A stretch of 64,000 nucleotides of DNA from Desmodesmus armatus (Eukaryota; Chlorophyta; Chlorophyceae; Sphaeropleales; Scenedesmaceae): the NCBI GenBank assembly GCA_007449985.2, contig VIIQ02000327.1, forward strand, positions 17,360 to 81,359, in the 5' to 3' direction. The position numbers were made by a program, and so were the translations under genes. How positions within the stretch are numbered: position 1 is the first letter of the stretch; every line of letters begins with the position of its first letter. Under the pieces are notes generated by a model. The model did not search any database and was not told the DNA's origin. It saw nothing but the letters and a program-made list of their open reading frames with translations. Positions 11,801 through 61,830 of this stretch are shown here, one piece after another.

Positions 11801-13556
11801 CACACACCTTGAGTCAGCAACACAGAAGAAGGGCAAGCAAGATAGCTGAAGGTATTGGAACCCGTGCATGCGGCCACTGCAGAAGAGGGAGAGGGGGGGG
11901 GGGGGGGGGGGGGTAACACGTCCAGCGAGCGTGGGTGGCTGTAGGTGGGAAGGGGCAGTAGGGAACATGCAATGAGTGAGCAAAAATTGAGTGAGCGTGA
12001 GGAAAAGCCAGGGTGGACAAGGAACCGTCCGAGCAAGAGCAGCCGTGGTTGCCTGCTCGTATGGGATGCCTAAGGCAACGCAAGCTGAGCGCAGAGCAAC
12101 AGCAGCAGCGGGGGCAAGGGGGTGCCGTCTGCGAGGCTGTTGCGCGCTGTTGCGGCGCACTCCCCCTAGCACCTCCCAGCGCCCGTGGGTGCCTGTAGGG
12201 GTTGCGGGAAGGGGCAGTTGTGCCGCGAAAGTGCGTGCAGCAACACAGCTGAAGGTACCACAATAAGTGCGCACGCACGGACGCATTTGGGGGGGGGGGC
12301 TCCTCCTAACACCTCCCAGCGACCGGGGGTGCCTGTAAAACACCCCCCCCCCTTTTCACCAAAGTAAAGGCACCCACCTGGTGTCCTGTCGGTCTCCCAA
12401 CGTCTCCTGTCAGTCCAAGCATTGCTGCCAGCACCCCCCGGATGCTGCTGCTGCTGCTGCCCCCCTCGCCTCCTCGCCCCCCCCCCCCCTCCTCCCCGGG
12501 TCAAACCCCGGGTCAAACCAAAACCAAACCCCGCCCCTCACCTACCTGCCAAACATCACGCTGGTACCTCCCCCCTTTTTCTACAGTCGATGTCCACACC
12601 TGGTGTCCTGTCACCTCCCCGCCTCCTGTCCGTCCAGGAATTGCTGCCAGCAACACCACCAGCTGGTGCAGCTGCCGGGTGCCCCCCCCCCCCTCGCCTC
12701 CTCGCGCCGTCCAATCTAAACCAGACAGAAGCGCAGCATATCAAGTCTCCCATGCGCACACCTAACCCACATAAACACATCCCCACACCCTTTCCATGCC
12801 AACACAAACACACCTGGCGTCCTGTCAGTCTCCCATCCTCGCCTGTCCGTCCAAGCATTGCTGCCAGCAACACCCCCCGGGTGCGGCTGCTGCTGCTGCT
12901 GGGCCCCATAGCCGTGCTGCTGTTGCTGCTGCTGCTGCTGCTGGCCGCTGCTGCCGGCGCTGCCGCCCTCGCCCCCACGCTGCAGCAACTTCACTTGGTC
13001 AGCAGCAGAGGCACCTGTGCCACAGTGAACACGGCAGTAACGGCAGAAGCAGAAGCCACACAGCAGTTACAGGCGATGCCAACCTACAAACCAAGGAGAG
13101 CGGGGTGTGTCTGTGTGTGTGTGGGGGGGGGGGGAGGGAGCAGGTTGCATGGCTTTGGACAGAATAGCTTCGCCCCCACGCTGCAGCAACTTCACTTGGT
13201 CACCAGCGGAAGCTCCTGTGTTACAGAACACATGGCAACCACGCCAGCAACACAGAAACCAAGGGTCGTGCACCATCATACAGGGAAAGCGAAGTGTCTT
13301 GTTGCAGGGTGTGTCGGGAGGAAGGGTGGGTTGCCCCGGTGGGTTATCAGCAAAGTTGCTTGAGCAGGCCGCATGAAGTCAGGAAGACAGCCTCGCCGCT
13401 ATGCTGCAGCAGCTTGGCGTGCTTGCATAACCTGTGTGACACCAAGCACGGCACCACACACACAGAGTTAACGTGGCGCCTTCCTTCCGCCTGTGAAAAG
13501 GAGGGGCCAAGAGATCACCCTCAATCAGGAAGGGAAGAGGGTGTCGACCACACTGC

Positions 13557-46329: not shown

Positions 46330-48017
46330 GTGAGCACCCTTTGCGAAGTTAAACGTTTCGAAGCTACTTCATTAACATCTCTGACAAGTCTCAATAGCAG
46401 ACGATTGCGGCTGGGGCGTTTGCCAGACAGCAACAGCACCGCACATCATGCAGACAACAGCTGCGTCCGGAGCGCTCTGGTGCTTACCAGCAGCTACATA
46501 TGCTGTACAGCAACTAACAGGAAGCTGTCTAGCTGGTTTTGGTGCGCGATCGCGACTCCTGCAAGGCGGGCTCAGGTGATTGCTGCAACATCGGTTTCAA
46601 TTCCTTTCCGAGTTTTGCTGTCAGGGAACCCTGTCAACGCTGCTCAGGTTCAAAGTGTTATAATAACGTTATTCATTGTTTTTGACTGCAGCTACATACG
46701 TTCTGTGAGCAGTAGCAGCTCCCAGCACACAAGCAGCAGCACAGCAACCCCAGCAGCCCAAGCAGCAGAAGCCCCAAAGACCATCCACGTCACGGTCAAC
46801 GGCAGAGCAGCAGAGTTACCGGCGGGCTCGTCGCTGTATGATGCTGTTTCGAAGGTCGGGGCGTTTGTGCCGGTGCTGTGCAAGCACCCCAGGCTACCAA
46901 ACACACCAGGCTCCTGCAGGTGTGTGTGTGTGTGTGTGGGGGGGGGGGGTGTTCTGAGGACGGTGCATTCAATTCAAAACACCATTCATTGTGTGTTTGT
47001 GTGCGTGGTGTCCTGCATGCGTGAAAGGGGGGAGGATGGGGACAGCAGCAGGGAGGAGGGGGCGGGAGGGGGGGGGGCGCTGGTGCTGTGCAAGCACCCC
47101 AGGCTGCCCAACACACCAGGCTCCTGCAGGTGGGGTCCGTTGACCGGGGGGGGGGGTGCCTGCATGCATGGAGGGAGGGTGGGAAGGAGGGGAACATATC
47201 ATCCAAGGTGGGGATAAATTGGTTGGTTGTGGGGTGAATGGGTGCTATGCATGGAACAGGAGGGGGGGGGGGCTGTGCAAGCACCCCAGGCTGCCCAACA
47301 CACCAGGCTCATGCAGGTGGGGGTGGTTGAGGAGGGTGTGTGGGTGTGTGGGTGGGAAGGGGGGGGGGGGGGGCACATAACAGCATGGGAAGGTTGGCAG
47401 GTTGTGACAGGGGGGGGGGGGATGCATGGAAGGGGTTGGGGGTTGGCATGCAAGGGGGGGGGGGTGTCCGCTGGCATAAAAGAAGGGGGGTGGGGCATGG
47501 CGGGGAGGGGGGGGTGGGAGGAGGGACGAAAGAGGGGGGCGGCGGCGGACGAAAGAGGGGGGGGGGAGGGGGGGGGTGCTGGCATAAAAGAAGGGGGGGG
47601 GGGATGGCGGGGGAGGGGGGGGGGGGGGGGACGAAGGAGGAGGGGGGAGGGTGGAAGCGGGGGTTACATGCAGTGTTGAGAGGACTCAGCAGCAGCGGGT
47701 GCGGCAGCACTAACAGCCACGTTGGCAGCAGCAGCAGCAGCAACGGCAGCAGCAGCAGCAGCGCCATCATGACATCAACACCGGCAACAGCAGCAACAGC
47801 AGCAGCAGCAGCAGAAACAGCAACATCGCACATGAGGCTTGGGGCAAGAGCAGCAGCACAGCAGCCACAACAAAACCAGCGAGCACACAAAGCTCAAGCT
47901 CCAGTGTTATGCCATGCGATCCTCTCCCTGCCACACTTGCCACAGCAGTTGCTGGGTACGTCGCATGCTGCCACCACAACCAACAGTTCCACTCTGAGCT
48001 CCTGTTCTTGCTGCTGC

Positions 48018-48056
<39 letters not shown>

Positions 48057-51000
48057 GCTGCTGCTGCTGCTGCTGCTGCCGCAGGGTGTGCATGGTTGAG
48101 GTTGATGGCCGGCTGAAGCCTGCCTGCTGCACACCAGCATATGAGGGGGCGGTCATAAACACAGATACAGATGAGGTGGGTATGCGCGGCGGGGCGAAGG
48201 GGGGGGGGGGTGCTCAGTATCCTTCTGGGCAGGGGGGCGTGAGGGTATCTATAACCTATTTGGGGGGGGGGGGGGTGATATCAAATTGTTTGCAAGTCAT
48301 ATGCAGGTAAAGGTCAATGGTTACAGTTGGGGGGGCGAGGGGGGGGGGATGAAGCCTGCCTGCTGCACACCAGCGAGGGAGGGGGCCGTCATCAACATTG
48401 ACACAGACGGGGTGGGTGCATGAGGGAGCAGCAGGGGGGTTCCAAGGAGCTTCCGGGGGGGGGGGGGGGGAGGGGGGGGGGGGGGGGGCTGCAGCCTGCC
48501 CACTGTATGCCAGCGTGGGCAGGGACGGCATCACTAAACTGATACATACGAGGTTTTGATCCTCTTGCAGATCAGGAGGAAGGTGATGGGCACGCTAAAA
48601 CTGCTGCGTGCCGACAACCCCAACAGACTACTTTTTTGTCGCCACAATAACACTGCCATGCTGTGCTGCTGACGTCTGCAGGTCAAGACAACAGTCACCG
48701 GCACGCTGACACTGCTGCGTGCCAACCACCCAAACAGACTTCAATGGTCAACTGTTTCTATTCATCAAAACGCCACTATGCTGTGCTGTGCTGTGCCGTG
48801 CTGCTGACAATTGCAGGTCAAGACCACAGTGACCGGCACACTTACACTGCTGCGTGCCAACCACCCTGAGGACTGAATCATGTGTTGTGGGAGCTACTTG
48901 TGCCAAACCAACATGTGTTGTGTTGTGTTGTGCTGTGCCGTGCTGTGGTCTGACGAGCGCAGGTCAAGACGACGGTGACAGGAACGCTCACGCTGCTGCG
49001 TGCCAACCACCCTGAGGACTGCATGAGCTGTGATGTGAATGGAAAGTGCGAGTTCCAAGACCTGATCACACGATACAACGTGAGTAGTTCTTTGCGTAGG
49101 GATGGTGGGTGGGTGTAGCTTTGCGTGCGGACACTCCGGGTGATGTCCGGGTTTCAGCTTGACAATTTGCAGCAAAATCACTGGATTTGTATATGGTCTG
49201 TCTCAAAGGGGGGGGGGGGGAGGGGGCTGCCAACCACCCTGAGGACTGCATGAGCTGTGACGTCAACGGGAAGTGCGAATTTCAGGACTTGGTTGTGAGA
49301 TACAATGTGAGCAATGTCTTTGTGTGTGATTGTGTCTATATGTGGAAGGGGGCCTTTGTCTGTGGGGACACTGGGCGTCAAGGTGCACACCCAATCAGAT
49401 TTGCGGTCGATTCTGTTGTGAGAAGGGGGGGGGACACCCTGAGGACTGCATGAGATGTGATGTCAACGGAAAGTGTGAATTTCAAGATCTGATTACGAGA
49501 TACAATGTGAGGGGTGGGGTGGGGGTGGGGGGTGGGGGGCATGTGCGGGTGTCGCTGGGGTCAGTCCACGTCAGAAGGGGGGGGGTCGTTTCTTTTGGGG
49601 GTGGGGGGTGGGGTGGGGGGGGGGGGGGGGGGGGGGGGGTGGGGGGGGGGGGGCTGCCAACCACCCTGAGGACTGCATGAGCTGTGATGTCAACGGAAAG
49701 TGCGAGTTCCAAGACCTGATTACGAGATACAGTGTGAGCAGTGTCTTTGTGTGTGATTGTATCTATATGTGGAAGGGGGCCTTTGTCTGTGGGGACACTG
49801 GGCGTCAAGGTGCACACCCAAGCAGATTTGCAGTCAATTCTGTTGTGAGAAAGGGGGGGGGGCAACCACCCTGAGGACTGCATTGATGTGATGTCAATGG
49901 GAAGTGCGAATGTCAGGACCTCATCACACGATACAACGTGAGTGGTGGTGTGTGGGGGGGTGGGGGGGGGGGGGCATGCCATGCGTGTGGGTGTCGCTGG
50001 GGTCAGTCCATGTCAGAAGGGGGGGGGGGTGTGTATGGGGGGGGGGGGGGGGGGCAACCACCCTGAGGACTGCATTGATGTGATGTCAATGGGAAGTGCG
50101 AGTTTCAGGACTTGATCACACAATACAACGTGAGTTTAAGTTACATTGACGGGGGGGGGGGGGGGGGGGGGGTCGGTTTGGGGTGGGGTGGGGGATGCGT
50201 TGGTGTGTGAGGACACATGGTGATTTCCGTTTCAGGGCATGTAATCACTGGACTTGGTAGTCGGTTGGTGGTGGTGGTGGGGGGGGGGGGGAGGGGTGTC
50301 ACCATCCTGAGGACTGCATGAGCTGTGACGTGAATGGGAAGTGTGAAATCCTGGATTTGATTGAGATACAATGTGAGTGTTGGTTTGAGGTGGGGGTGGT
50401 ACGTGTGTGTAGCTGTGTGTGCGGCCCTCTGGATCAGTTGTTTTCAGCTTGTTTGGTTCAATGCGGACGCTTGTTTGCAGGCGGTATGTTGACAAAGAGG
50501 CGGGGTGCGGTGGGGCGGGGGTGGGTGGGGGGTGGGGTGGGGTGGGGTGGGGGTGGGGGGCAACATGCAACCACCCTGAGGACTGCATGAGTTGTGATGT
50601 TATTGGGAAGTGCACGTTTTGATCACACGGTACAACGTGAGTGCTGGTTTTGACTGGGATAGTTGTTTGGCACAGTGAGTAGGCTTGTGTGAGATGGCTT
50701 AGGGGTGGGGGAGGGGTGTATGCGTGTGTTAGGCTGGGTAGCAGTCCATCTCAGAAGAAAGGCAACAACCCCAGCTGCGAGAAGGGGAAGGGGGGGGGGG
50801 GTGCAACCACCCAGAGGACGGCATGTGCTGGGGCTTATTGTAAGTGTGTGTTTGAAGGCATGACTGCAGAATATAGCGTGAGTGTTTGGGGTGGAGGGAT
50901 GTGTGCATGCATGTGAAACCACTTGCGTCAGGTCATTTTTGAGAGGGCGTGCGGGGGCACATTGGTCAGGCCACATGGGTTTTGAGTGAGTGTCAGTGTT

Positions 51001-53703
51001 GCTTTCTCTTGGCCACCAAGTGATGGACATGCTGTTTGCGTCATTGTCACTTCTGCTGCCGCTGCCGCTGCTGCCGCTGCTCCTGCTGCTGCGCAGGTCC
51101 CCAAGTGGCCCAAGCTGAAGGAGGTGTCCGAGGACTACATTGAACATACAGCACACGCACATGTGTACGACCAGGTAAGGCTTTCAAACCAATACGTGGT
51201 GGTGGTACTTTGTGGTAGCTAGAATATGAGGAGGGGTGGCGGTCACAGTACTGTGCATCTTCAAAACGCTGTGTACCGCCTGTACTCTGATTGCCTGCAC
51301 ATGGTTGTTGTGATGTGGTTTAGAGGCTCAGAGGCTATGGTGAAAGACTCATGTGTTCACAAAGTTTCTTTGCCATCAAGTTGGACTTGGACAGTTGCTT
51401 CAAGTGCAGCCTCTCAACAAGTGCGCTCACACATGCTGACTTTCACAATGACCACCAAGAGATGCAAGTTGCCCAGCTCTCACCCCCCCCCCCTTCTTCC
51501 AGCCCCCCCTCCCCGCGGTACAAACACACATATCCTTTGCCATCAATTGGACTTGGACAACTGCATGTGTGACAACGTGCAGGCGTGCAGATGAGTGCGT
51601 GCTAATCAGTGCCGTGGCCCTATAGACTGCCCCCCCCCCCCGCCACCCCCAAATCGCCCCCCCCCCCCCCCCCGCAGAGTTACTTTACATCAAGCTTGAC
51701 CTTGACAAGTGCAGCCGCTGCGTGACCAACTGCGCACATCATATATATTGACTTTGGAACAAAAGTGTCAGCTCTTTGGCCTTAAAACACCCCCTCCCCC
51801 CCCCCCCTACAGAGTTCCTTTGCCATCAAACTCGACTTGGATAAGTGCATCAAGTGCAGCCGCTGTGTGACCAACTGCGCACATCATATACACTGACTTT
51901 GGAACAAAAATGTCAGCTCTTTGGACCTAACACACGCCCCCCCCCCCCCCGCTCCCCCCACCCCTGTCATACGGTATCAAAATAACAACACAGAGCTCAT
52001 TTGCCATCAAGTTGGACCTTGACAAGTGCATCAAGTGCAGCCGCTGTGTGACGACGTGTGAGGAGGTGCAAGGCATGAACGTGCTGGGCATGTTCAACAG
52101 AGGGCGTGATCGACACATCGGCTTTATCTACGGTAAGCATAAGTCCAGGCTTACAGTGTGTGTTACCATTGGATAAAACTGCTCCCTTGTCCCTGGTTCA
52201 AGCCACTTGCTAGTTGGTGGTTGGCTTTGTTGTGGGTATTAGTGCGGTGCATGTGTGATGGGTTGTGTGAGGAGGTGCAAGCATGAATTGCTGGGATTGT
52301 TCAACAGGGGCCGCGACAGGCACATCGGTTTCAGCTACGGTAAGCACAATTTGTAGCTACTGCTGGTGCCACTGCTGCTGCTCCCCTGTCCCTCTTGCAG
52401 AGACCGATCTTGACCTGTCAAAGTGCATCGAGTGTGGCCAGTGCGTGAGCGTGCGCCTAATTGGTGCACTGTATGAGCATCCAATCACACTTTTAAGCCT
52501 GTCGTCATGACATGCACTTGATGGTTGTAACTCATGTGTTTAACACACTGCACCCCTCCCCCTCTCCCCCCCGTCCCCCTGCCCCTGCCGCCCCGCCTCA
52601 ATGCCATACAGAGACTGATCTTGACCTGTCAAAGTGCATCGAGTCTGGTCAGTGCGTAAGCGTGTGTCCACTGGGTGCACTGTATGAGAACACACGTCGT
52701 GTAGTGCAACTCACTGCTTCTACTGCTGCTGTTGAATTTCTGTCTTTTGTGCAGAGACGGATCTTGACCTATCAAAGTGCATCGAGTGTGGTCAGTGTGT
52801 GAGTGTGTGCCCAGTGGGTGCGCTGTATGAGAACACAAGTTGGAGGGAGGTGCTTGGAGCGCTGCAGAACAAACGAAAGGTGGGTCGGCCACAAACGCTA
52901 GGAGGGCAATAGCCAGGGGCTCGTGCCTGTGACTATTCAGTTTCAAGCAAAGGAAGGGATGTGCTATCTTCCAACAGCAAGTGCAGGGAGGTGCTGGGGC
53001 AGCTGCAGAACGAACGCAAGGTGAGTCATCAGTGGGGAGTCTACAGTGTTAGGATGTGCTGGACATACTGCTGGCCAAATGCACGAGCGGTTGACTAGGC
53101 AAGGGGCTCGCACTTGTGGCTGATCATCATCAGGCCCTGAAGGAGTGTGCTGTTTGTGATGAGCTGGTGCTGGGCCTGCTGCAGAACAAACGAAACGTGG
53201 GCGTGTGGGGGGTGGGTGGGCAGTTGGGGGGGGGGGGGGGGAGTCAGAAGGGGTGGGTGGGTAGGTGGGAGGTTTCTTTTGGGGGGGGGGGCACTGTATG
53301 AAAACACCAGCTGGAGGGAGGTGCTGGGGCTGCTGCAGAACCCGCAAAATGTGGGTCCACCACGACCACAGGCGATGGCCGGGGGAGAGGGGCCCCTGCC
53401 CCAGTGCCTGGCCATGACAGCAAAATGCGCAGCAAGGAATGTTGGCTTAGGCAAAAAGGTTGCAGAAAGTTGGCTTAGGGGCACCATACGGCAGGGGTTG
53501 ATGGGGCTGCTGCTGAACAAACGGTGTGTTGATCCAGAAGGGGGGGTGGGGTGGGTGGCCAACAACACACCTAACGAACCAACTGGAACTGAACGTGGGC
53601 GCTAGGGAGGGGGATCAATCAGAAGGTAGGGTTGGCGGTGAGATTTGCTTTGGCTGTGACAGCCATCATGCTGCTGCTGTCGCCACCATGCCGATCTCGC
53701 TGC

Positions 53704-53747
<44 letters not shown>

Positions 53748-55664
53748 ATTTGCCTCAGATCATGGTCGCCCAGACAGCCCCTGCGGTGCGTGTGGCGATT
53801 GGTGAGGAGGCGGGGATGGCACCGGGATCCATCAGCACTGGGCAGATGGTGGCAGGTGCGGGGGGCTTGCAGGGAGGGGGGGGGGGTAGGGGGCGGTGCA
53901 TATGTGGCACGCAATGTTTGAGGCCTGTCATGTGAGTATGACGAACATCAAGCACTTTGCTTGGCATTTCGGAGGATTCATGTCTCTCTAATTGCACCTA
54001 TGGCACAGGTTAGTGCTGTGGCCAGAACAATCTGTGGCTGCTGCTGCTGCTGTAACTGTCTGCAGGTCTCAAGAAGCTAGGATTTGACTACGTTTTTGAC
54101 ACCAATTCTGCTGCTGACCTGACAGTCGTGTTGCTGCTGCCGCTGCTGCTACTCCCCCGCCCCACCCCACCAGGTCTCAAGAAGCTAGGGTTTGACTACG
54201 TCTTTGACACCGATTTTGCTGCTGATTCGACCACCATTCTGCATGTTGCTGCAACTGCTGCGACTGCTGCTGCTGCTATTTTCAGGTCTCAAGAAGCTAG
54301 GGTTTGACTACGTCTTCGACACTGATTTTGCTGCTGACCTGACTATCATGGAGGAAGGCACTGAGCTGCTGCACAGATTGAAGCTGGCATGGGGGCTGGA
54401 GAAAGGAGAAGGTGAGTGGGACCTCTGTTGATATTGTTTGTTGTTTGTTTGGGGGTAGGGGAGGGGGGGAGTGGGGGGTGGTTTGAGCACTTTGCTTCGG
54501 GGCCAGGTAGTCTAGGGCCAAAACTCCCAGTACTGTGAGTCAAAATGTTGTGGCAAGCCCTGGCTAGGCTTCGGTACAGGAACCGTGTATCTAAGTGCAT
54601 GTTGGACACACACATGTGCCTCCCTCCCCCCAAAAGACAAAACACACACGCAGGCCCCTCCCCCTCCCCTGCCATGTTCACTAGTTGCTGCCCCGATTTG
54701 GTCAACCTGGTGGAGACTGACTACCCTGAGCTCATCCCTCACCTGTCCACCCACACTTACACACATACAACCCGGCACAATGTGTTGTTCCATTGTGTTG
54801 TCCTCCCCCCCCCCCCCCACTACACACACAGGCCCTCCCCCTCCCTGCCCATGTTCACCAGCTGCTGTCCAGCGTGGGTCAACCTATCGAAACAGACTAC
54901 CCTGAACTGATCCCACACCTGTCAAGTTGCAAGAGCCCCCAACAAATGATGGGCGCAGCTGTCAAGGAGGTGTGGTGCAAACAAATGGGACTCAAGGTGT
55001 GTGGTGGTGTGTTACATTTCGTTCTTCTCTCACGGGGTTTTGTGTTGTGGGGAGAGGCTGCGTTGAAATGATCCCCACCTGTCAAGCTGCAAGAGCCCTT
55101 AGCAAATGATTGGGGCAGCTGTGGGGAGGTGTGGTGCAAACTTGTGGGGCTCAAGGTACATCAGTTGGGTTGGTGTTTGCTGTTGCTTGTACGTTCGTTG
55201 CAACCTGCTCGGTGAAAGGGGGCTCAGCCCCTGATGAACAGGAACGTGAGTTGTTATGGTTCTTTTTTAAAGCTGATCCCTGACCTATCCAGCTGCATGA
55301 GACCACAACAAATGATAGGGGTAGCAGTTAAGGAGTCTGGTGCAAGCAGATAGGACTCAAGGGTGTCGTGTTCAGAGGGTAACCCCGTGTGGTATACATC
55401 ATTTTACGCTTCCAAAGAGGGGTATTCTTGTAGTGTGGGAGAGGGGGTGCCAGTGGTGTGTTGCTTCATATGGTGTCTGATCCCCCACCTCTCCAGCTGC
55501 AAGAGCCCTCGGCAGATGATGGTGCAGCGTCAAAGAGGTCTGGTGCAAGCAGATGGGACTCAAGGTGCGTTTGGTGTATGCTGTGTCATGCTCTTTTCAC
55601 ATGCTCAAGTAAAACCATGTGGTTGTCCGTGGAGTTGTTTTTTGGCGTCCGCACACCCAATGGT

Positions 55665-55695
<31 letters not shown>

Positions 55696-58600
55696 TGCTG
55701 CTGTTGCAGCCCGAGGACGTGGTGATGGTCAGTGTCATGCCCTGCACAGCCAAGAAACACGAGGCACATCGGCCGAGATGGGACGCAAGGCTACAGGTAT
55801 ACCCTGGGTTCTGCAGTGCTGTTTTGCGCTTTTAGGTGTAGTTGAGCAGAGCATGGGCATGATGTGCCGCATAGCACAGCAGTACGGTGCAGCGGCTGAG
55901 CAGTCTGGTAAGCTTACATTATTTGAGTATTTTCTTCCATCACAGAGCAGCACAGCATTGTAGAAAGTGCCCCTGGCAGTGTCAATTGCAGTGCTGTCAT
56001 ACTCAAGTATGCATGCTCCTGCTTCGAGTGTGCGGGAAGCTGTTGGAAATGTCCCAGTGATAGGGCCCAATGCTGACGTAAATTGTGAATGCAGTGTTTA
56101 TGCAGGGATGTTGACTTTAAGTCGACGACGCGTGAGCTGGGCCGGCTGTAGCGCTCTGCCCAGCGAACACTACAAATAAGGATACATCAACCTAAATTGT
56201 GGTTATTATGGCTTAATTACAGGGACGTCGACTTTGTGTTGACGACGCGTGAGCTGGGTCGGCTGTTGCGCTCTGCCCAGCGAACAGTACGAATAAGGAT
56301 ACATCCACCTAATTAGTAATTTGATTTTGTTTATTTTTTGCTTATTTGCAGGGACGTCGACTTTGTGTTGACGCGCGTGAGCTGGGTCGTCTGTTCCGCT
56401 ACAACAAGATCACCATGGCATCTCTGCCCAGCGAACACTACGACAGCCCCATGGGAACGGGATCAGGTGCGAAGATCGTCCTGTCGTTGAAATGGAGCGA
56501 ATCAGGGCGACTTAGGGCGATTACCGGTCATTTTGTTTCACATTTCGAGAAAGTCATAAGACCCCCAGGAAATTTGACGGCTGCTGCACAGGATTGCACG
56601 GTTCCCTCATCTAACATTATCTAGGAGGACCTGACCAACTGAGAGAGACCTGCCGAAACATGCACGCAACGTATGTGTGTCCTAATATCATGTTGCAGGT
56701 GCGGGCGTGTGCGGTGTGCGGCATAACTAAGCTATCATTTGCATGTATGTCCGTGTATCTCTCTGCAGGTGCTGGAGTGCTGTTGGAAACTCTGGCGGCG
56801 TGATGGAGGCGGCGGTGCGCACAGTGTACGAGGTCGTCACGGGCAAGGTAGGCTTGCACCCGGTGAACTGCTTATGCCATACAGTGTACCCCCCCCCCCT
56901 TGTGTCTTGGGGAAGGGGGAGGGGTTGGTGGTGGTGTGATGGTGAGGCCGCGGTGCCCTGTGTATGAGGTCGTCACGGGCAAGGTGGGCTTGCAACCTGG
57001 TCCTCCATCATACACATGATGTCTAGGTGATGTTGTATGGTGCACCCCCCCCCCCCATACACATGATGTCTAGGTGATGTTGTATGGTGCACCCCCCCCC
57101 CCCAACCCCCGCATCTGCCCCAATGCACTGTGTCAATTACATTGTTTTTCTTGTGTGTGGGTGGAGGGGGGGGGGCGCTTTGGTGGTGTGATGGAGACGG
57201 AGGTGCGCACCGTGTACGAGGTCGTCACAGGCAAGTGGGCTTGCAAGTTCTGCCAAACCTTTTTTTGCCAATGTGCATAGTATGCTCTCCCCCCATCCTT
57301 TCCCCGCCCCCACACCCCTGGCCCCATCCGTCATCCGTCCCTACCTTGTGTGTTCAATAGTGGGTGAATTGGTTGGTGAAGAAGGGGGGGGTGATGGAGG
57401 CGGTGGTGCGCACCGTGTACGAGGTCGTCACGGGCAAGGTGGGCTTGCAAGTTCTGCCTCTCCTTTTTTTTGCAATGCCGCATAGCACCCCCCCCCCCTC
57501 CATTCCCCCCGCCCCCGTGCCCCTGGCCCATCCGTCCGTCCCACCTTGTGTGTTTAATAGTGGGTGGGTTGGTTGGTGAAGGAGGGGGGGGGGGTGAGGA
57601 GGCGGTGGTGTACATCGTGTACGAGGCCGTCACGGGCAAGGTATGTATGAGTGTGATCAACCCTATTCTTCACTGTAAAAGAAAAGGAAGAAAAGGGAGG
57701 GATGCGTGCAGTACCGAGATTCATGTGCGGTTTGTAGGTAAATCGTCGGGGACAGCGTGGTTGCCGGGCACCTAGGATCACCCCCCCCCCCAGCCCCCCC
57801 CTCCTGTTTTTGCCGGTGGCAGTGAATTTTATTTGGGAGGGGGTCTGTGGTGGTGTGATGGAGGCGGTGGTGCGCACTGTGTCGAGGTCGTCGCATGCAA
57901 GGTATGTATGAGTGTGATCAACCCTATTCCCTACTAGTAGAAGAAAATGCAGAAAAGGGAGGGATACGTGCAATGTCGAGATTCCTGTGCGCGGTTTGTG
58001 GGCAAATGGACGGCGTGGTTGCCAGCACCTAGGAACAACTGTGCGGCAGCAACTGGAGCAACTGAAGGAAGTTGCTAATGGAAGACAGGTACAGCGTGAC
58101 TGCACCAGGGGGCGTGTAGTAGATTTAACCAACAACACTGAGTGGACTTCACAAAGGAATTGGATTCCACAAATGCTGTACACAAGGAGAAACTGATACG
58201 TGGGGAGCAAATCATTCTTCAGGGCTTGCTGAAAAGTCCTGAAGAATGATTTGGTCCCCACTTATCATGTTTCTCCTTGTGTACAGCTCGACATATCAGC
58301 TTCCTCCACACCCCACCTCAACCCCCACGCACTGTATCCCCACAACCCCCCATCTTGATGCTTACTGCCCGTGAAGGGTTCTGCTAATGTGACCTAAGCA
58401 GCTGAATTCAGACTCAACAAAGGAATTGGACTCCACAAATGCAGCACACAAGGAGAAACATGAAAAGTGGGGACCAAATCGTTCTTCAGTACTTGTTGAA
58501 AAGTCCTGAAGAATGATTTGGTCCCCACTTATCATGTTTCTCCTTGTGTACAGCTCAGACATACCACCTTCCTCCCCACCCCACCAGAACGTCGAACACT

Positions 58601-61376
58601 CTATCCACCACCACACCCTCCTCAGGACATCATGCCATGATCAGTGATCATGTCGACTGCCCTCAAAAGGTGCTGCTGATGAGACTCGCATGTATGCTCA
58701 ATGCTGACACACACAGGAGCAGCCACAGCGCTGCGGCTGGCTGGTGCCGTGGCGCGGCTTGAAGCACATCAAGGAGGCCGCACTGGAGCTAGCCCTCCCG
58801 GACAACACTGTCAAACAGGTCAGCACTTGATCCCGGATCACCACGGTGATTACGTGGTGTGCGGGTGGCATCTGGGTGAACTTATCGAGGACATCAAGCC
58901 GGCAAGGCACAGTACGACTTCATTGAGGTCATGTTATGCCCCCCCCTCCCTTAAACGACCACCATCACCACCACTACCTCCACCACCACATCAGTACCAC
59001 CACCATCAAGTAGACTACCCCCCTCCCCCCCCCCACACACACACCCGCCTACCCCCACCCCCACCCACCCCGCCTCCTTCACCACTTCTTTTTTGCAGTC
59101 AAGGTGGCTGTTGCGAGCGGCATTGCCAATGCACGGGAACTTATCGAGGATATCAAGGCGGCAAGGCGCAGTAACGATTTTGTCGAGGTGATGTCATGCC
59201 CCGGCGGTTGCATCGGAGGGGTGGACAGCCCAAGACCCGGTTCACGACGTGCTGCAGAAACGCATGGACGCTGTGTACAACATCGATCAACATGCCAAGC
59301 TGGCAAGAGCCACCAAAACCCCGAGTTCAGGTGTTTTTGGGGGGGGAGTGGGGTTTTGTCTGTATTTTTGTGGTGTGTGTGTGTGGGGGGGGGGGGGGGG
59401 GATGATGTCATGCCCCGGCGGCTGCATTGGCGGGGGGGGCAGCCCAAGACCAGGGGTCACGACGTGCTTCAGAAACGCATGGACGCTGTGTACAACATTG
59501 ATCAGCACGCCAAGCTGTGCATGAGCCACCAAAACCCGAGGTCCAGGTGGGTTTTTTTGTTTTTGTCAGTACAGATTTTTTGGTTTTTTCCAGTATAGTT
59601 TTTATACTTTAGATATCTTACTTCACTTTGAATTAGTTTCGTCTTACAATTATTGGTTTTTATTTATTTTCCTCAAGGGGGGGGGTGTGGGGGTGATGGC
59701 ATGCCCCGGCGGCTGTATCGGAGGAAGGCAGCCCAAGACCAGGGGTCACGACGTACTGCAGAAGCGCATGGACGCTGTGTACAACATGATCAGCACGCCA
59801 AGCTGCGCAAGAGCCACCAAAACCCAGAGGTCCAGGTGGCCGGAGGGTCGTCACAAGGGGGGAACGGGGGGGGGGGGTGCACGGGGGTTTGATGCCCTGG
59901 TGGCGGTGTCGACCACCCTGTTACTAGACACTTTGATGAGCCCAACAGCCACTATGTACTCAATACCAACTGACGGTTTGTACTGCACTACACTGTACTG
60001 TGCGTCTCAAGGCGGTTCAGCAGTGATTTGGTGAGCCCAACAGCCAAGTCATGTCCCCATTACCTGACTGTGATGTACTGCTTTGTACTGTCTTTGTACT
60101 GCACTATGCTGTACTGCACTGTACTGCCCCCAGGCTGTGTACCAGCAGTACTTTGGTGAGCCAAACAGCCACAAGTCACACGAGCTGCTACACACACACT
60201 ACCAGGAGAGGAGCGGGGAGGTGAGAGATGCTTTGCTAGGGGGGGGGGGCATCTCTTAGGGGTTGGTGGTGCTTGGGAGGCTCATGTTATGCATCTTGTA
60301 TCAAAGTTGGTTTCCTAAAATAGGGAGCTAGTGCATGAAAGTAGGAGAGGGTTGCAAGGGCAGGGGGGGGTTACACACACTACCAGGAGAGGGGCGGGAG
60401 GTGAGGGACCCCGTTGTTGGGAGGGTGGATGGGGGTGGGGTTTGACAGAGCAGGAGGGGACTGCATGGGAGAGGGGGGGGGGGGGGGGGCACACCAGGCT
60501 GGGTGGGTGGGTGGGTGGGTGGGTGGGGACGACAGGGTGTGTGTGTGTGTGTTAGCACAGGGATTACTTGTGTAGCTAGCATACTATGAGCATGCAAAAC
60601 ACATGCAAGCAATTCAGGAGGGACACCAACATTTTCCTACAAGGATGGTCAAACTATGACGGCAATGTGTGTGTGTGGGGGGGGGGGACACTACCAGGAA
60701 AGGAGCGGGATGTGAGGAGGCTTGGGGGGGGGGGCGTAGATAGACGTGTGCGTGTGTGTACGAGGTGGGTCGGTGGAGGGGGGGGAGGAGAGGGGTGAGC
60801 GTGTCGACAGAGGGAGTATTTGGATACATGCAAGCTCACTGAGACTGTCCTGCTAAATAGGCAAGTGTGTGTGTGTGTGTGTGTTGTTTGGGGGTGGGGG
60901 TGGGGTGGCATGTGTGTGTAGGGGGTGGCGAAGAGGGCGGGGGACACAACACCAAGAGAGAAGCGGGGAGGTGAGCCTGCTTGCCACGCCCAAAAGGCCT
61001 CCGAGGCGTGGCCGTCAGGCCTACCTCCCCATTCCTCTCCTGGCTGGCTGGTTCAAGGTGTTAAACAAGGTCAAGAAGATATCCGGATTTGCATGTGAGG
61101 TCGAGAGGGTTTGCGGGACAGCAACAACACAAACATGCAGGTTGAGGATCAAGCAGCGAGGTTTTTGAGCAGGGGGAGTTGTTCCCCACCCACCACACAT
61201 TGCTGCCCCCCCCCCCCCACACCTTCCCCTTGTCTCTCATGTGTGCAGAAAACCCTGGGCTACAGTGACAGTGCCAAGGCTGATGACCAGCTACCCCCTG
61301 AGGTTGAAGCGGCCAAACATGCAGAGTCAACGATCCCTGGTCCTGAGGGCGGCTGGCAGTTCCAACCACTGTTCAG
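46330..61376 (+). CDS. HYDA: [FeFe]-hydrogenase, M3 type, at least 15 exons
   Basis: Reversible H2 formation and oxidation. Reading the exons in order gives the full M3 layout as in Clostridium pasteurianum CpI: [2Fe-2S] domain, His-ligated [4Fe-4S] (HPEDCMSC...C), two [4Fe-4S] clusters (KCIKCSRC...C and KCIECGQC...C), then the H-cluster domain with L1 TSCCP, L2 [10 protein letters not shown] and L3 SCPGGCIGG, ending SHELLHTHY. Algal hydrogenases such as Chlamydomonas HYDA1 lack the N-terminal cluster domains; some trebouxiophyte enzymes are reported to carry them. A Ser/Arg/Ala-rich leader from 46,330 could be an organelle transit peptide, but its exon structure is unresolved. The first half of the gene splices cleanly in frame. 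The H-domain exons contain single-base breaks. Maturases HydE, HydF and HydG are not in the window. Confidence 0.9.
46692..46919 (+). CDS. HYDA: Hydrogenase exon: N-terminal half of the [2Fe-2S] domain
   Basis: After a Ser/Thr/Ala-rich lead the exon reads [20 protein letters not shown], then [20 protein letters not shown] and NTPGSC, giving cluster ligands in VLC and GSC. It ends two bases into an Arg codon (AG|GTGTGT). The acceptor at 46,691 is the likely start, but joining it to the upstream frame from 46,330 with a donor at 46,576 would shift frame, so the leader is uncertain. Confidence 0.85.
47080..47316 (+). repeat. Two donor-side copies of the [2Fe-2S] exon end
   Basis: At 47,080-47,129 and 47,268-47,316, both encoding [14 protein letters not shown] and followed by GTGGGG donors. 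Both are downstream of the intact exon and preceded by a G-run; neither has an acceptor. Confidence 0.95.
47360..47665 (+). repeat. G-rich intron sequence with many G-runs
   Basis: About ten G-runs of 6-14 nt, with GGCATAAAAGAAGGGGGG and GACGAA(A/G)GAGG motifs repeated at 47,474, 47,522-47,560, 47,581 and 47,630. Part of the large intron between the two [2Fe-2S] exons. The following 47,690-48,080 is CAG/CTG-rich. Confidence 0.9.
48085..48175 (+). CDS. HYDA: Hydrogenase exon: C-terminal half of the [2Fe-2S] domain
   Basis: CCGCAG acceptor. The first base completes the split Arg codon, then [20 protein letters not shown] and [10 protein letters not shown], with the third (RVC) and fourth (PAC) ligands. 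The GTGGGT donor is in phase 0. Confidence 0.93.
48353..48536 (+). repeat. Two donor-side copies of the second [2Fe-2S] exon
   Basis: 48,350-48,411 ([26 protein letters not shown] donor) and a more decayed one at 48,489-48,540. Both follow the intact exon and both abut G-runs. Confidence 0.85.
48571..48880 (+). repeat. Three acceptor-side copies of the His-[4Fe-4S] exon
   Basis: At 48,571 ([18 protein letters not shown]), 48,682 ([19 protein letters not shown]) and 48,817 ([19 protein letters not shown] then stop). Each has a TGCAG acceptor but loses the exon before its donor. All precede the intact exon. Confidence 0.95.
48963..49079 (+). CDS. HYDA: Hydrogenase exon: His-ligated [4Fe-4S] cluster
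   Basis: A 39-codon phase-0 exon: [20 protein letters not shown] then [20 protein letters not shown]-x3-C-x2-C-x5-C is the NuoG/hydrogenase-type cluster motif. It is the only copy with both a CGCAG acceptor and a GTGAGT donor. Confidence 0.95.
49226..50882 (+). repeat. Eight donor-side copies of the His-[4Fe-4S] exon
   Basis: Copies start near 49,227, 49,434, 49,652, 49,862, 50,054, 50,296, 50,560 and 50,801. Most begin around the codons for ANHPEDCM directly after a G-run of 8-23 nt and run to the GTGAG donor plus 50-130 bp of intron. None has an acceptor. Decay increases rightwards: the last reads [12 protein letters not shown] then stop. The intron parts at 49,307 and 49,732 are also copies (TGTGGAAGGGGGCCTTTGTC). 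Confidence 0.95.
51097..51174 (+). CDS. HYDA: Hydrogenase exon: linker before the two-cluster ferredoxin domain
   Basis: 26 codons, GCGCAG to GTAAGG, phase 0: [20 protein letters not shown] then AHVYDQ. Corresponds to the linker between the His-cluster and the 2x[4Fe-4S] domain. No copies were seen. Confidence 0.85.
51363..51900 (+). repeat. Four acceptor-side copies of the first [4Fe-4S] exon
   Basis: At about 51,363, 51,533, 51,679 and 51,814. The two closest to the intact exon keep a (C/A)AG acceptor and LDLDK...CSRCVTNC, then share an unrelated tail (CACATCATATA, GACTTTGGAACAAAA). The farther two are badly decayed. C-runs lie between them. Confidence 0.85.
51994..52132 (+). CDS. HYDA: Hydrogenase exon: first [4Fe-4S] of the ferredoxin domain
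   Basis: 46 codons plus one base: [46 protein letters not shown], with C-x2-C-x2-C-x3-C. It ends G|GTAAGC; the next exon starts AG to give Glu. A donor-side copy (GTGAGGAGGTGCAAGCATGA to AGCTACGGTAAGC) follows at 52,262-52,338. Confidence 0.93.
52399..52700 (+). repeat. Two acceptor-side copies of the second [4Fe-4S] exon
   Basis: At 52,401 and 52,612, each after a [20 protein letters not shown] and [20 protein letters not shown], then divergence before a donor. Upstream of the intact exon. Confidence 0.92.
52755..52879 (+). CDS. HYDA: Hydrogenase exon: second [4Fe-4S] of the ferredoxin domain
   Basis: AG completes Glu, then [42 protein letters not shown]-x2-C-x2-C-x3-C-P. GTGGGT donor in phase 0. 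Confidence 0.95.
52974..53530 (+). repeat. Four donor-side copies of the second [4Fe-4S] exon
   Basis: Ends near 53,021 ([18 protein letters not shown]), 53,196 ([17 protein letters not shown]), 53,350 ([25 protein letters not shown]) and about 53,522 ([14 protein letters not shown]). All are downstream of the intact exon. Confidence 0.9.
53759..53855 (+). CDS. HYDA: Hydrogenase exon: start of the H-cluster domain
   Basis: [20 protein letters not shown] then [12 protein letters not shown], ending one base into Gly. It matches the conserved [13 protein letters not shown] motif that opens the [FeFe]-hydrogenase H-domain. Preceded by a CTG microsatellite (53,702-53,746) in place of a typical pyrimidine tract. 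Confidence 0.95.
54065..54245 (+). repeat. Two acceptor-side copies of the [13 protein letters not shown] exon
   Basis: At 54,066 and 54,174, each after a [22 protein letters not shown] and [19 protein letters not shown], then loss of homology. Both are upstream of the intact exon. Confidence 0.95.
54286..54411 (+). CDS. HYDA: Hydrogenase exon: [19 protein letters not shown]
   Basis: GT completes Gly, then [20 protein letters not shown] and [21 protein letters not shown], ending one base into Gly at GTGAGT. This is the conserved [13 protein letters not shown] segment of the H-domain. Confidence 0.95.
54654..54760 (+). repeat. Acceptor-side copy of the L1 exon, in frame but altered
   Basis: CGCAG acceptor, GC completing Gly, then [20 protein letters not shown] and [12 protein letters not shown] in frame, then no homology. 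The L1 motif reads TSCCPDL where the family has TSCCPAW. Confidence 0.9.
54832..54996 (+). CDS. HYDA: Hydrogenase exon: L1 motif, two single-base frame breaks
   Basis: Full-length copy with a CACAG acceptor and a GTGTGT donor. The DNA encodes [12 protein letters not shown], the canonical L1 H-cluster motif, and then [20 protein letters not shown] and [15 protein letters not shown]. It carries one base too few before the ATG of MFTSC and one too few after VNL compared with the partial copy at 54,654. Confidence 0.85.
55069..55564 (+). repeat. Three donor-side copies of the L1 exon end
   Basis: Ends at about 55,156 (GTACAT), 55,362 (GGTGTC) and 55,564 (GTGCGT). They encode decayed forms of [16 protein letters not shown]...WCKQMGLK and lie downstream of the full exon. 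Confidence 0.9.
55710..55796 (+). CDS. HYDA: Hydrogenase exon: L2 motif
   Basis: [21 protein letters not shown], containing the L2 motif M-P-C-x2-K-x2-E with the Cys and Glu expected around the H-cluster. After HRP the frame gives RWDARLQ; a one-base shift gives EMGRKATG, closer to the family's RPEM. So a single base is probably missing near 55,776. Preceded by a CTG microsatellite at 55,671-55,706. Confidence 0.88.
56104..56310 (+). repeat. Two acceptor-side copies of the [14 protein letters not shown] exon
   Basis: At about 56,106 (GATGTTGACTTT) and 56,222 (GACGTCGACTTTGTGTTGAC), each after a (C)AG. Both drop from GRL directly into GCTCTGCCCAGCGAACA, having lost the middle of the exon. Upstream of the full exon. 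Confidence 0.88.
56352..56466 (+). CDS. HYDA: Hydrogenase exon: [14 protein letters not shown] segment, with a frame break
   Basis: TTGCAG acceptor, then DVDFVLT, a one-base loss (TTGACGCGCGTGAG against TTGACGACGCGTGAG in the copy at 56,222), then [20 protein letters not shown] and [13 protein letters not shown]-x-V-L-T-T-R-E-L is a conserved H-domain motif. Confidence 0.88.
56769..56847 (+). CDS. HYDA: Hydrogenase exon: [21 protein letters not shown]
   Basis: GT completes Gly, then AGVL; one T appears missing so that the frame would hit TGA; the shifted frame gives [21 protein letters not shown] with a GTAGGC donor. G-x-x-G-G-V-M-E-A-A-x-R-T is highly conserved in [FeFe]-hydrogenases. Confidence 0.9.
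56939..57902 (+). repeat. Five donor-side copies of the [13 protein letters not shown] exon
   Basis: Ending near 56,984, 57,234, 57,438, 57,641 and 57,901. Each encodes part of [17 protein letters not shown] and is followed by a donor (GTGGGC or GTATGT; in one the G is missing). G-runs precede most of them; C-runs lie in the introns between. Confidence 0.92.
58176..58286. repeat. Long hairpin, copy 1
   Basis: The left arm CTGTACACAAGGAGAAAC...ATCATTCTTCAG pairs with the right arm CTGAAGAATGAT...GTTTCTCCTTGTGTACAG over about 48 bp with few mismatches, around a loop of about 15 nt. It lies inside a hydrogenase intron. Consistent with a foldback MITE or a small-RNA precursor. Confidence 0.9.
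58444..58553. repeat. Long hairpin, copy 2
   Basis: Same element about 265 bp to the right, with about 44 of 47 stem positions paired by eye. The flanks (GGAATTGGACTCCACAAATG on the left, CTTCCTCC...CACC on the right) are also repeated, so element and flank were duplicated in tandem. Confidence 0.9.
58717..58818 (+). CDS. HYDA: Hydrogenase exon: [13 protein letters not shown] segment
   Basis: ACACAG acceptor, then [20 protein letters not shown] and [14 protein letters not shown], 34 codons, GTCAGC donor. It fits the variable segment of the H-domain around V-R-G-L-x-G-x-K-E-A. A decayed copy of sequence resembling the start of the next exon (CTTATCGAGGACATCAAG) follows at 58,880. Confidence 0.8.
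59099..59330 (+). CDS. HYDA: Hydrogenase exon: L3 motif, with a frame break
   Basis: TTTGCAG acceptor, then [40 protein letters not shown], carrying both Cys ligands of L3. One G is missing in the run after GCIGG, so the expected GGQP reads VDSP. In the shifted frame it continues [20 protein letters not shown]. It ends at GTGTTT. Confidence 0.9.
59401..59835 (+). repeat. Two donor-side copies of the L3 exon
   Basis: About 59,405-59,546 and 59,693-59,835. Both keep SCPGGCIGG, then [19 protein letters not shown] in one frame or another, and GTGG donors. Copy 2 has eight Gs where nine are needed. Copy 3 reads [20 protein letters not shown] in frame but loses a T after YN. No copy is intact over its whole length. 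Confidence 0.92.
59915..60050 (+). repeat. Two upstream partial copies of the C-terminal hydrogenase exon
   Basis: TTTGATGAGCCCAACAGCCA (59,931) and TTTGGTGAGCCCAACAGCCA (60,029), related to the FGEPNSH region of the exon at 60,134. Confidence 0.75.
60134..60220 (+). CDS. HYDA: Hydrogenase exon: conserved C-terminal HELLHTHY
   Basis: 29 codons in phase 0: [20 protein letters not shown] then [15 protein letters not shown] donor. L-Y-x-x-Y-L-x-x-P-x-S-x-K-A-H-x-L-L-H-T-x-Y is the usual end of the H-domain. The donor implies at least one further exon. Confidence 0.93.
60367..60975 (+). repeat. Three donor-side copies of the [10 protein letters not shown] exon end
   Basis: At about 60,373-60,399, 60,685-60,711 and 60,945-60,970: sequence for (H)YQERSGE followed by GTGAG, all downstream of the intact exon and beside G-runs. 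Confidence 0.85.
61249..61376 (+). CDS. Probable C-terminal extension exon of the hydrogenase
   Basis: GTGCAG acceptor, phase 0 (matching the donor at 60,221): [42 protein letters not shown], ending in GTACGC. Not part of the standard H-domain and not recognised. It could instead begin a separate gene whose start I cannot see. Confidence 0.5.
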
Positions 61377-61557
61377 GTACGCTGCCGCTGCAGCTGCTGA
61401 TGTTGGGGGGTTGGGGTGGGTGTGGATAGTGGGGGCGGGGGGCAGGGGGGTACCACTCCAATGGAAGTTATGCACACAACTGTAATGATTACATGGTGGA
61501 ACTGTGTTTGGGTACAGGACGTGCAGCATGTCACATGCTTACTGGGGGGGGGGACAC

Positions 61558-61830
61558 GTGGAGTCGACCATTCTGGTCCCAAGGGCGGCTGGCAGTTCCA
61601 ACCACTGTTCAGGTACGCTGCTGCTGCAGCTGCTGCTGAGGTTTGGTTGTGATGGATGTGAATAGTCCGGGGGGGGGGGGTACCAGTCCAATGGAAGTTA
61701 TGCACACAACTGTAATGATTATGGTGGAACTGTGTTGGGGTACAGGACATGCAGCATGTCACATGCTTTACTGGGGGGGGGGCACGTGGAGTCGACCATT
61801 TCTGGTCCCGAGGGCAGCTGGCAGTTCAGG
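61558..61830 (+). repeat. Two donor-side copies of the [12 protein letters not shown] exon
   Basis: 61,558-61,615 ([18 protein letters not shown]) and 61,788-61,829 (decayed, GTGCGC), with the intervening intron (CCAATGGAAGTTATGCACAC) also copied. Both downstream of the intact exon. Confidence 0.9.

Follow-up and report, generated by a model that had tools for sequence, protein, structure and literature searches.

Small tandem duplications are described (PMC8355091) as products of double-strand-break repair that combines CST-guided Pol alpha-primase fill-in with end joining (insertions under 100 bp, at nuclease-made breaks in mouse cells). Tandem exon duplication gives rise to mutually exclusive exons and can extend to partial copies of the flanking introns (PMC6071210); and a model of intron gain by tandem duplication is credited to Rogers (1989). 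The exon fragments that we report from the alga Desmodesmus armatus resemble the break-repair duplications in being short, direct, local copies that enlarge the gene, but their units are 0.1-0.4 kb long, lie in series, and have poly-G at many donor-side joins. As in the intron-gain model, exonic sequence and splice sites are tandemly duplicated within a gene; however, the algal introns pre-exist and grow, with the fragments inside them, and we claim no new intron. As in tandem exon duplication, the copies extend into neighbouring intron, but in that process the copied unit is an entire exon with its two splice sites, whereas none of the 47 copies in the algal gene is whole. Our literature search, whose coverage of subscription journals was thin, found no title on polarised exon fragments.

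The window analysed here is a 64,000-nt stretch of the D. armatus assembly (GCA_007449985.2, contig VIIQ02000327.1, 17,360-81,359, forward strand), containing an [FeFe]-hydrogenase gene (Table 1). Fragment position played no part in setting the exon limits, which follow from splice sites, open frames, and resemblance to a Monoraphidium minutum hydrogenase (P0001). Frame breaks occur in five of the 16 exons (I, J, K, L, and N) and represent either decay or assembly errors; a second copy of the gene was sought across the assembly and none was found. Each exon was compared by BLAST (E up to 0.05) with both strands of the window, the reversed window serving as control, which gave 77 plus-strand and 29 minus-strand matches, and one match in the control. 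All 29 minus-strand matches and 10 of the plus-strand ones came from the AGC-repeat part of exon A and were discarded, as were two weak distant matches of exon M (E 0.010 and 0.026); two more plus-strand matches were merged into exon K fragments, and 16 were the exons themselves.

The remaining 47 fragments are all on the sense strand (none inverted), and all sit in introns adjoining their own exon: 16 upstream and 31 downstream. Acceptor-side fragments lie upstream and donor-side fragments downstream in 47 of 47 cases, although these counts are not independent, as the fragments share 18 exon boundaries. The first-pass annotation had reported about 16 upstream and about 32 downstream fragments without exception, and the order it described is confirmed; the wrong-side fragments at comparable frequency that it named as contrary evidence number 0 of 47 in this gene. 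Its description of one full copy per exon, unlike whole-exon duplication, also holds, since no BLAST fragment in the window is a whole exon (0/47) and none carries both splice sites as duplicated, mutually exclusive exons do. No fragments of exons D, G, J, and M were kept from the BLAST comparison with both strands of the window. Identities range from 70 to 97%, so the fragments are not identical assembly doublings; the weakest (59930, 60688, and 60944; E 0.003-0.008) all belong to exon O.

Table 1. Hydrogenase exons, their fragments, and fragment families of other genes in the window (window coordinates).
Feature	Position	Strand	Description	Basis
[FeFe]-hydrogenase gene region	46692..61830	+	exons A-P (16 recognisable); 2Fe-2S and further Fe-S domains	
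Exon A	46692..46919	+		
A, donor-side	47068..47316	+	2 fragments (from 47068, 47269)	
Exon B	48085..48175	+		
B, donor-side	48347..48552	+	2 fragments (from 48347, 48487)	
C, acceptor-side	48572..48889	+	3 fragments (from 48572, 48682, 48817)	
Exon C	48963..49079	+		
C, donor-side	49228..50877	+	8 fragments (from 49228, 49435, 49655, 49863, 50055, 50301, 50568, 50804)	
Exon D	51097..51174	+	without fragments	
E, acceptor-side	51369..51871	+	3 fragments (from 51369, 51677, 51813)	
Exon E	51994..52132	+		
E, donor-side	52241..52339	+	1 fragment	
F, acceptor-side	52401..52697	+	2 fragments (from 52401, 52612)	
Exon F	52755..52879	+		
F, donor-side	52957..53350	+	3 fragments (from 52957, 53166, 53287)	
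Exon G	53759..53855	+	without fragments	
H, acceptor-side	54066..54261	+	2 fragments (from 54066, 54174)	
Exon H	54286..54411	+		
I, acceptor-side	54656..54747	+	1 fragment	
Exon I	54832..54996	+	one internal frame break	by eye vs P0001
I, donor-side	55055..55564	+	3 fragments (from 55055, 55273, 55477)	
Exon J	55710..55796	+	one frame break; without fragments	by eye
K, acceptor-side	56106..56292	+	2 fragments (from 56106, 56223), each without an inner exon stretch	
Exon K	56352..56466	+	one frame break	by eye
Exon L	56769..56847	+	one frame break	by eye
L, donor-side	56929..57901	+	5 fragments (from 56929, 57178, 57385, 57588, 57845)	
Exon M	58717..58818	+	without local fragments	
N, upstream	58878..58942	+	1 fragment (exon positions 39-104), no visible acceptor	
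Exon N	59099..59330	+	several frame breaks	by eye
N, donor-side	59403..59835	+	2 fragments (from 59403, 59686)	
O, upstream	59930..60051	+	2 fragments (59930-59952, 60018-60051), no acceptor assigned	
Exon O	60134..60220	+		
O, donor-side	60373..60970	+	3 fragments (from 60373, 60688, 60944)	
Exon P	61249..61376	+		
P, donor-side	61554..61830	+	2 fragments (from 61554, 61789)	
Family W1	8704..9660	-	exon end 9507-9660; 4 donor-side fragments downstream	by eye
Family W2	13695..14700	-	exon end 14605-14700; 4 donor-side fragments downstream	by eye
Family W3	12374..12900	-	exon end 12810-12900; 2 donor-side fragments downstream	by eye
Family W4	11230..12338	-	exon start 11230-11370; 3 counted acceptor-side fragments upstream	by eye
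Family W5	12880..13225	-	exon start 12880-13021; 1 acceptor-side fragment upstream	by eye
Family W6	7000..7402	-	exon start 7000-7162; 1 acceptor-side fragment upstream	by eye

Most fragments retain the splice site on their side. Among the 31 donor-side fragments, 30 have a GT at the exon end or no more than 1 nt from it (more than the 26 or so that a nonsynonymous divergence near 0.09 would predict, by our arithmetic); in the remaining one (59403) the GT, by reading, is 2 nt away. Fourteen upstream fragments have a match that begins at most 12 nt from the exon start, and 13 of these have an AG at or adjoining that start; the claim that upstream fragments keep an acceptor therefore stands for 13 of the 16 and fails for 60018, while 58878 and 59930, whose matches begin at exon positions 39 and 17, fall outside this check. 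Individual hydrogenase introns hold as many as eight additional donors or three additional acceptors.

The same order is seen in other genes: all 45 fragments (12 acceptor-side, 33 donor-side) obey it in 24 hand-picked families from nine contigs, chosen by eye from repeat pairs in which an exon and a splice motif were readable. The exons have a single open frame in 9 of the 24 families, two or three in 14, and none as cut in one (T1, L022). Additional fragments seen by eye (near 8450, 11492, 11770, 11925, and 13871 in the window; 3471 in L032) were not counted, and large arrays in L017, L020, L021, and L023 lie outside the count, so the figure of 45/45 is not exhaustive. The cross-gene test that the first-pass annotation had proposed thus came out in favour of the order within these families, which are a part of its full-genome scope. 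In L024, a nearly complete copy of the last exon without an acceptor is located downstream (4508-4626 versus 4759-4877); it is also uncounted.

We consider frequent small tandem duplications, with selection against the harmful ones and later decay, to be the best explanation (probability about 0.82). All 47 fragments are same-strand copies close to their exons, and the visible duplication units run head to tail; those in the hydrogenase gene have periods of 427 bp (49208-50027), 236 bp (61337-61827), 203 bp (57188-57642), and 117 bp (56103-56400), and contig L015 holds an array of roughly 170-bp units carrying a donor motif. When copying was simulated on the actual exon map, all 503 classified fragments from tandem duplication fell in the observed order, against 249 of 479 for dispersed copying. 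Direct tandem duplication can give no other order, so the polarity needs no special new process. The simulation agrees with the earlier proposal that boundary-spanning tandem duplication yields both the order and one full exon; but "boundary stuttering" as a process of its own goes too far, the order being a geometric consequence with no sign of boundary aiming on the present map. Nor does the mutation behind it lack a name: break repair that creates small tandem duplications is already described (PMC8355091). Five further features went unremarked in the first-pass annotation: poly-G at the joins of donor-side fragments, G-runs on the sense strand, more donor-side fragments than simulated, synonymous-rich divergence, and the broken frames of five exons.

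Under the tandem-duplication model, small direct duplications (visible units about 0.1-0.4 kb) would occur frequently in the genome. A unit running from intron into exon would place an acceptor and the first part of the exon ahead of the intact copy, and a unit running from exon into intron would place an exon end and donor downstream of it. Duplications of a whole exon, or within one, would alter the protein, and one intact exon would remain because selection presumably removes most of them. Later rounds could copy a fragment together with its intron as one unit, producing series, more of them on the donor side; and the fragments would decay after duplication.

Poly-G (at least five G, within 25 nt) is found 5′ of 23 of the 31 donor-side fragments, compared to 16% of intron positions, and at none of the 16 acceptor-side joins; G-runs favour the sense strand in plus- and minus-strand genes alike. 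The simulation leans toward the acceptor side (283 versus 220 donor-side fragments), whereas the data lean toward the donor side, both in the hydrogenase gene (16 versus 31) and in the other genes (12 versus 33). These three features (poly-G joins, sense-strand G-runs, and donor-side excess) do not follow automatically from tandem geometry; the donor-side events may be triggered where sense-strand G-runs cause breaks or stall synthesis. Rearrangement at G-rich tracts is reported for C. elegans dog-1/FANCJ mutants (PMC4369104 among others), where G-tracts likewise mark the ends; but those rearrangements are deletions, whereas the alga has duplications, by a mechanism that we infer.

Insertion of the fragments by dispersed or RNA-mediated copying would allow either order and either strand, and is vanishingly improbable: we found no support for it in this analysis, its simulated order is right in only about half of the cases, and the actual fragments are uniformly sense-strand, confined to the adjoining introns, and continuous with donor or acceptor intron sequence. 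A boundary-directed process, tied to splicing or transcription and starting duplications at exon-intron junctions, is unlikely. The sense-strand preference of the G-runs hints at a link to transcription, and only 2 of 81 intragenic BLAST pairs are free of exons and fragments; but old intron-only duplications fade from view, which inflates the share at edges, and 9 of 10-11 young units touch an exon or fragment against 75% expected (p 0.25 and 0.46; the expectation places surviving units at random and counts contact with any exon or present-day fragment, and young units are few). Enrichment of young duplications at exon edges is not seen on the present map with this small sample, so a boundary-directed process is not needed. 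An intron-only tandem of 47 bp is located at 57009-57104, and is absent from the tally of 81 pairs. That the copies are assembly artefacts, for instance where two diverged haplotypes or strains were joined into a chimera, perhaps with the help of poly-G read tails, would agree with the poly-G at the joins, the broken frames of five exons out of 16, the position of the window at a contig end, and the synonymous-rich differences (see below) that two diverged alleles would show. Yet the G-runs track the sense strand of genes on both strands, as read tails would not; head-to-tail units and arrays are visible, the order is identical in 24 of 24 families examined on nine contigs, and the hydrogenase gene lacks a second copy in the assembly, which makes this reading very unlikely.

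The divergence between fragments and exons is rich in synonymous differences. The pS/pN ratio is 3.58 in the hydrogenase gene (bootstrap 2.51-4.75; exons K and N and the acceptor-side fragment of I omitted) and 5.39 in the other genes (bootstrap 4.00-8.10; 17 of 24 families, with the frame picked by eye in 8 of the 17); both are higher than the value of about 2 that neutral fragments allow, with a transition bias taken from 11 repeat pairs assumed non-exonic (gene content of window 17832, L013, and L017 unchecked). When only families with one open frame are considered, third positions account for 44 of the 69 differences (p 0.015 versus one half). The intron is clearly alignable in 11 of 66 fragment-exon pairs, in which pS is 0.254 and the intron divergence (0.112, biased downward by the use of local alignments) is about twice the nonsynonymous divergence (0.057), which is what neutral fragments should show. 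In the other 55 pairs the intron sequence past the splice site could not be clearly aligned, though nonsynonymous divergence there is just 0.075. Simple decay does not explain the synonymous-rich divergence of fragments that lack a splice site. The synonymous excess, these 55 pairs, the donor-side surplus over the simulation, and the GT retention speak against the preferred explanation.

Coding constraint, with the fragments functioning as decoy or alternative splice sites or as alternative exons, is suggested by the mostly synonymous differences and by the splice dinucleotides kept in 30/31 and 13/14 testable fragments. It is weakened by the intron comparison, since constraint alone predicts near-equality of pS and intron divergence, and in the 11 alignable pairs pS is the higher and intron divergence is twice pN (the intron value being biased downward). 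In addition, many fragments have frame-breaking indels and each lacks one splice site; we regard a functional role as quite improbable and rejected this candidate. A more elaborate and doubtful proposal is that transcription-linked, G-run-dependent duplication adds exon edges genome-wide, and that these edges exchange sequence with the functional exon through short tracts of gene conversion; introns would then store synonymous variants and speed silent turnover of the coding sequence. Conversion would show as exon parts and flanks whose nearest copies differ, and the one case in its favour is 49435/49863/50055 (mismatches 7/151 versus 12/70, p 0.004); for 49228/49655 the exon has 10/79 mismatches and the intron 5/114 (p 0.053), and a PHI-type test for conversion in exons C and L was negative.

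Correct splicing of the hydrogenase transcript would need the outermost donor-acceptor pair to be used despite the extra donors and acceptors. If the pattern is general, exon fragments would record where past intragenic tandem duplications took place, how large they were, and how they were joined, and the alga would provide a natural record of a class of mutation that is hard to see elsewhere.

Every exon of the hydrogenase gene was blasted against the window on both strands, which yielded 77 plus and 29 minus matches, compared with 1 in the reversed window that served as the control. We removed 39 matches of exon A (within its AGC repeat) and 2 weak matches of exon M, merged 2 matches into exon K pieces, and set aside the 16 exons themselves; 47 fragments remained, 16 upstream and 31 downstream of their exon, with none inverted and none comprising a whole exon. 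The polarised order described in the first-pass annotation, acceptor-side pieces (acceptor plus exon start) 5′ and donor-side pieces (exon end plus donor) 3′ of the full exon, is thus borne out for all 47 pieces; its 48 cases, however, are not independent, since the pieces share 18 boundaries. A GT is found at the exon end or at most 1 nt away in 30 of 31 donor-side pieces, and an AG at or adjoining the exon start in 13 of the 14 testable upstream pieces (2 further ones fall outside the test). In the three introns containing both kinds, donor-side pieces precede acceptor-side ones.

The same order extends beyond this gene. Local repeats were listed for the remainder of the window and for loci fetched from the assembly; after reading part of them by eye, we hand-picked 24 families of exon edges, comprising 45 pieces on nine contigs (C321, C730, C10, C50, C555, C290, C410, C450, and C85), representing 22 exons, two of which have a family on either side. 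All 45 pieces of these hand-picked families fit (donor-side downstream, 33/33; acceptor-side upstream, 12/12); the full-exon copy was assigned by reading, with a single open frame in only 9 of the 24 families. Unclassified repeat pairs, including large arrays, could harbor exceptions. A duplication trace was present in every gene checked by eye for it, and the process looks recent, given a perfect 141-bp duplication within an intron of another hydrogenase gene, located on contig C85 (see table); that gene also has one acceptor-side piece, upstream of its exon.

Is this order surprising? We simulated duplication on the real exon map, using unit lengths as observed and discarding duplications of whole exons or inside exons. 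Under tandem duplication, 503 of 503 classified pieces took the order seen in the gene (besides 35 internal pieces from later rounds), whereas under copying to random places 249 of 479 did (besides 88 internal pieces); the order is therefore forced once copies are direct and tandem. The tandem duplication across exon–intron boundaries proposed earlier explains the order, but the order does not imply the special process also suggested; it reveals how the copies arose. Of the 10 or 11 young units whose intron can be aligned, 9 touch an exon or a fragment; random placement on today’s map predicts 75%.

The simulation does not reproduce the numbers of the two kinds: donor-side and upstream pieces number 31 versus 16 in the hydrogenase gene and 33 versus 12 elsewhere, versus 220 and 283 in the simulation. 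Counted by boundary, the figures are 10 versus 8 and 15 versus 9 families, which means that donor-side edges copied over and over account for much of the surplus. One candidate reason is a G-run within the unit, and harm by extra acceptors ahead of the true acceptor may be another. A G-run of at least 5 lies within 25 nt 5′ of 23 of the 31 donor-side hydrogenase pieces, compared with 16% of intron positions (p ∼2e-12 under an assumption of independence that the pieces violate); 3′ of the 16 acceptor-side joins, neither a G-run of that length nor six C occurs within 25 nt, although the upstream piece 58878-58942 has a C-run across its end. In five stretches that were chosen rather than randomly sampled, with gene strands assigned by reading, long runs (at least 8) prefer G on the sense strand: 46 G versus 15 C in the hydrogenase introns and 14 versus 4 in L032 (plus-strand gene), and, on the plus strand of minus-strand genes, 5 G versus 32 C in L030, 1 versus 54 in L015 (mostly one array), and 2 versus 11 in window 8000-9700. 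The G-runs may relate either to transcription or to how the G-rich strand is structured.

Differences between pieces and exons are mostly synonymous: pS is 0.344 and pN 0.096 in 14 hydrogenase families (ratio 3.58, bootstrap 2.51-4.75), and 0.197 and 0.036 in 17 of the 24 other families (5.39, 4.00-8.10; reading frame picked by eye in 8 of the 17). Next to a conserved exon, neutral pieces permit a ratio of ∼2. Where the intron past the splice site is clearly alignable (11 of 66 pairs), its divergence (0.112) is twice pN (0.057; pS 0.254), as for neutral pieces; in the remaining 55 pairs the intron is not clearly alignable, yet pN is 0.075. Higher third-position mutability, exchange with diverged alleles, and gene conversion may each add to the synonymous excess. 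Units 49435 and 49863 look like a case of conversion, differing at 7/151 flank but 12/70 exon-part positions (p 0.004), with the exon part of 49863 closest to 50055 (5/71 mismatches); the pair 49228/49655 points in the same direction without significance (10/79 versus 5/114, p 0.053), and a PHI-type test for conversion gave no signal for exons C and L.

The window forms the end of contig C321. The product of the hydrogenase gene is an [FeFe]-hydrogenase whose N-terminus carries a 2Fe-2S domain, accompanied by further iron-sulphur domains; the first half shares 66% identity with a Monoraphidium minutum protein. When the assembly (115.8 Mb, 831 contigs) was searched with the latter, no other gene with the same N-terminal domains came up. 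Judged by eye against the M. minutum protein (P0001), 11 of 16 exons read through and five need a frame change, reflecting either a decaying gene (pseudogene) or base-level assembly errors. The C85 hydrogenase shares 93% identity with the Scenedesmus sp. SE-MC3 enzyme and 82% with its Tetradesmus obliquus counterpart, so that the source is most likely a scenedesmacean green alga. No frame break was seen in the exons of the C85 gene, joined by eye.

Features of the hydrogenase gene, the window, and fetched loci (L-numbers)
Feature	Position	Strand	Observation
Exons A-P (n = 16)	46692-61376	+	Set from open frames, splice sites, M. minutum protein
Frame-broken exons I, J, K, L, N	54832-54996, 55710-55796, 56352-56466, 56769-56847, 59099-59330	+	All within 3′ half of gene
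Tandem duplication	57009-57104		47 bp, perfect; intron 3′ of exon L
Intron element	58145-58618		Occurs twice in direct orientation (87%), both copies containing inverted repeats (58175-58287, 58446-58549); candidate small mobile element
Short direct repeats	43067-44150		Differences confined to one codon phase; perhaps a repeat within coding sequence and not a set of exon fragments
Tandem duplication	L011 6361-6641		141 bp; C85 hydrogenase intron
Third [FeFe]-hydrogenase domain match	L014 (C555:44500-54400)		Within 793-codon open frame
Two arrays	L015 3834-6057, 8075-9763	−	∼170-bp unit, each with donor motif and G-runs; second extends to contig end
Exon and its donor-side piece	L022 60-464		Look like glucose-6-phosphate dehydrogenase by eye
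Acceptor-side piece, ∼160 nt	L032 5802-5970		14 counted coding differences (10 synonymous, 4 not); own-frame stop shortly past join (by reading)

Published work describes small tandem duplication through break repair (PMC8355091), intron gain via tandem duplication (PMC4974935), and, at mutually exclusive exons, surrounding duplications that include part of the intron (PMC6071210); a partial, title-level search, which cannot establish unpublished status, found no publication titled for polarised exon edges. The exon pieces genuinely record small tandem duplications that were frequent, and they raise the questions of why donor-side pieces are in excess, why so many of their joins carry G-runs, why divergence is rich in synonymous changes, and how the outermost sites are selected in splicing.
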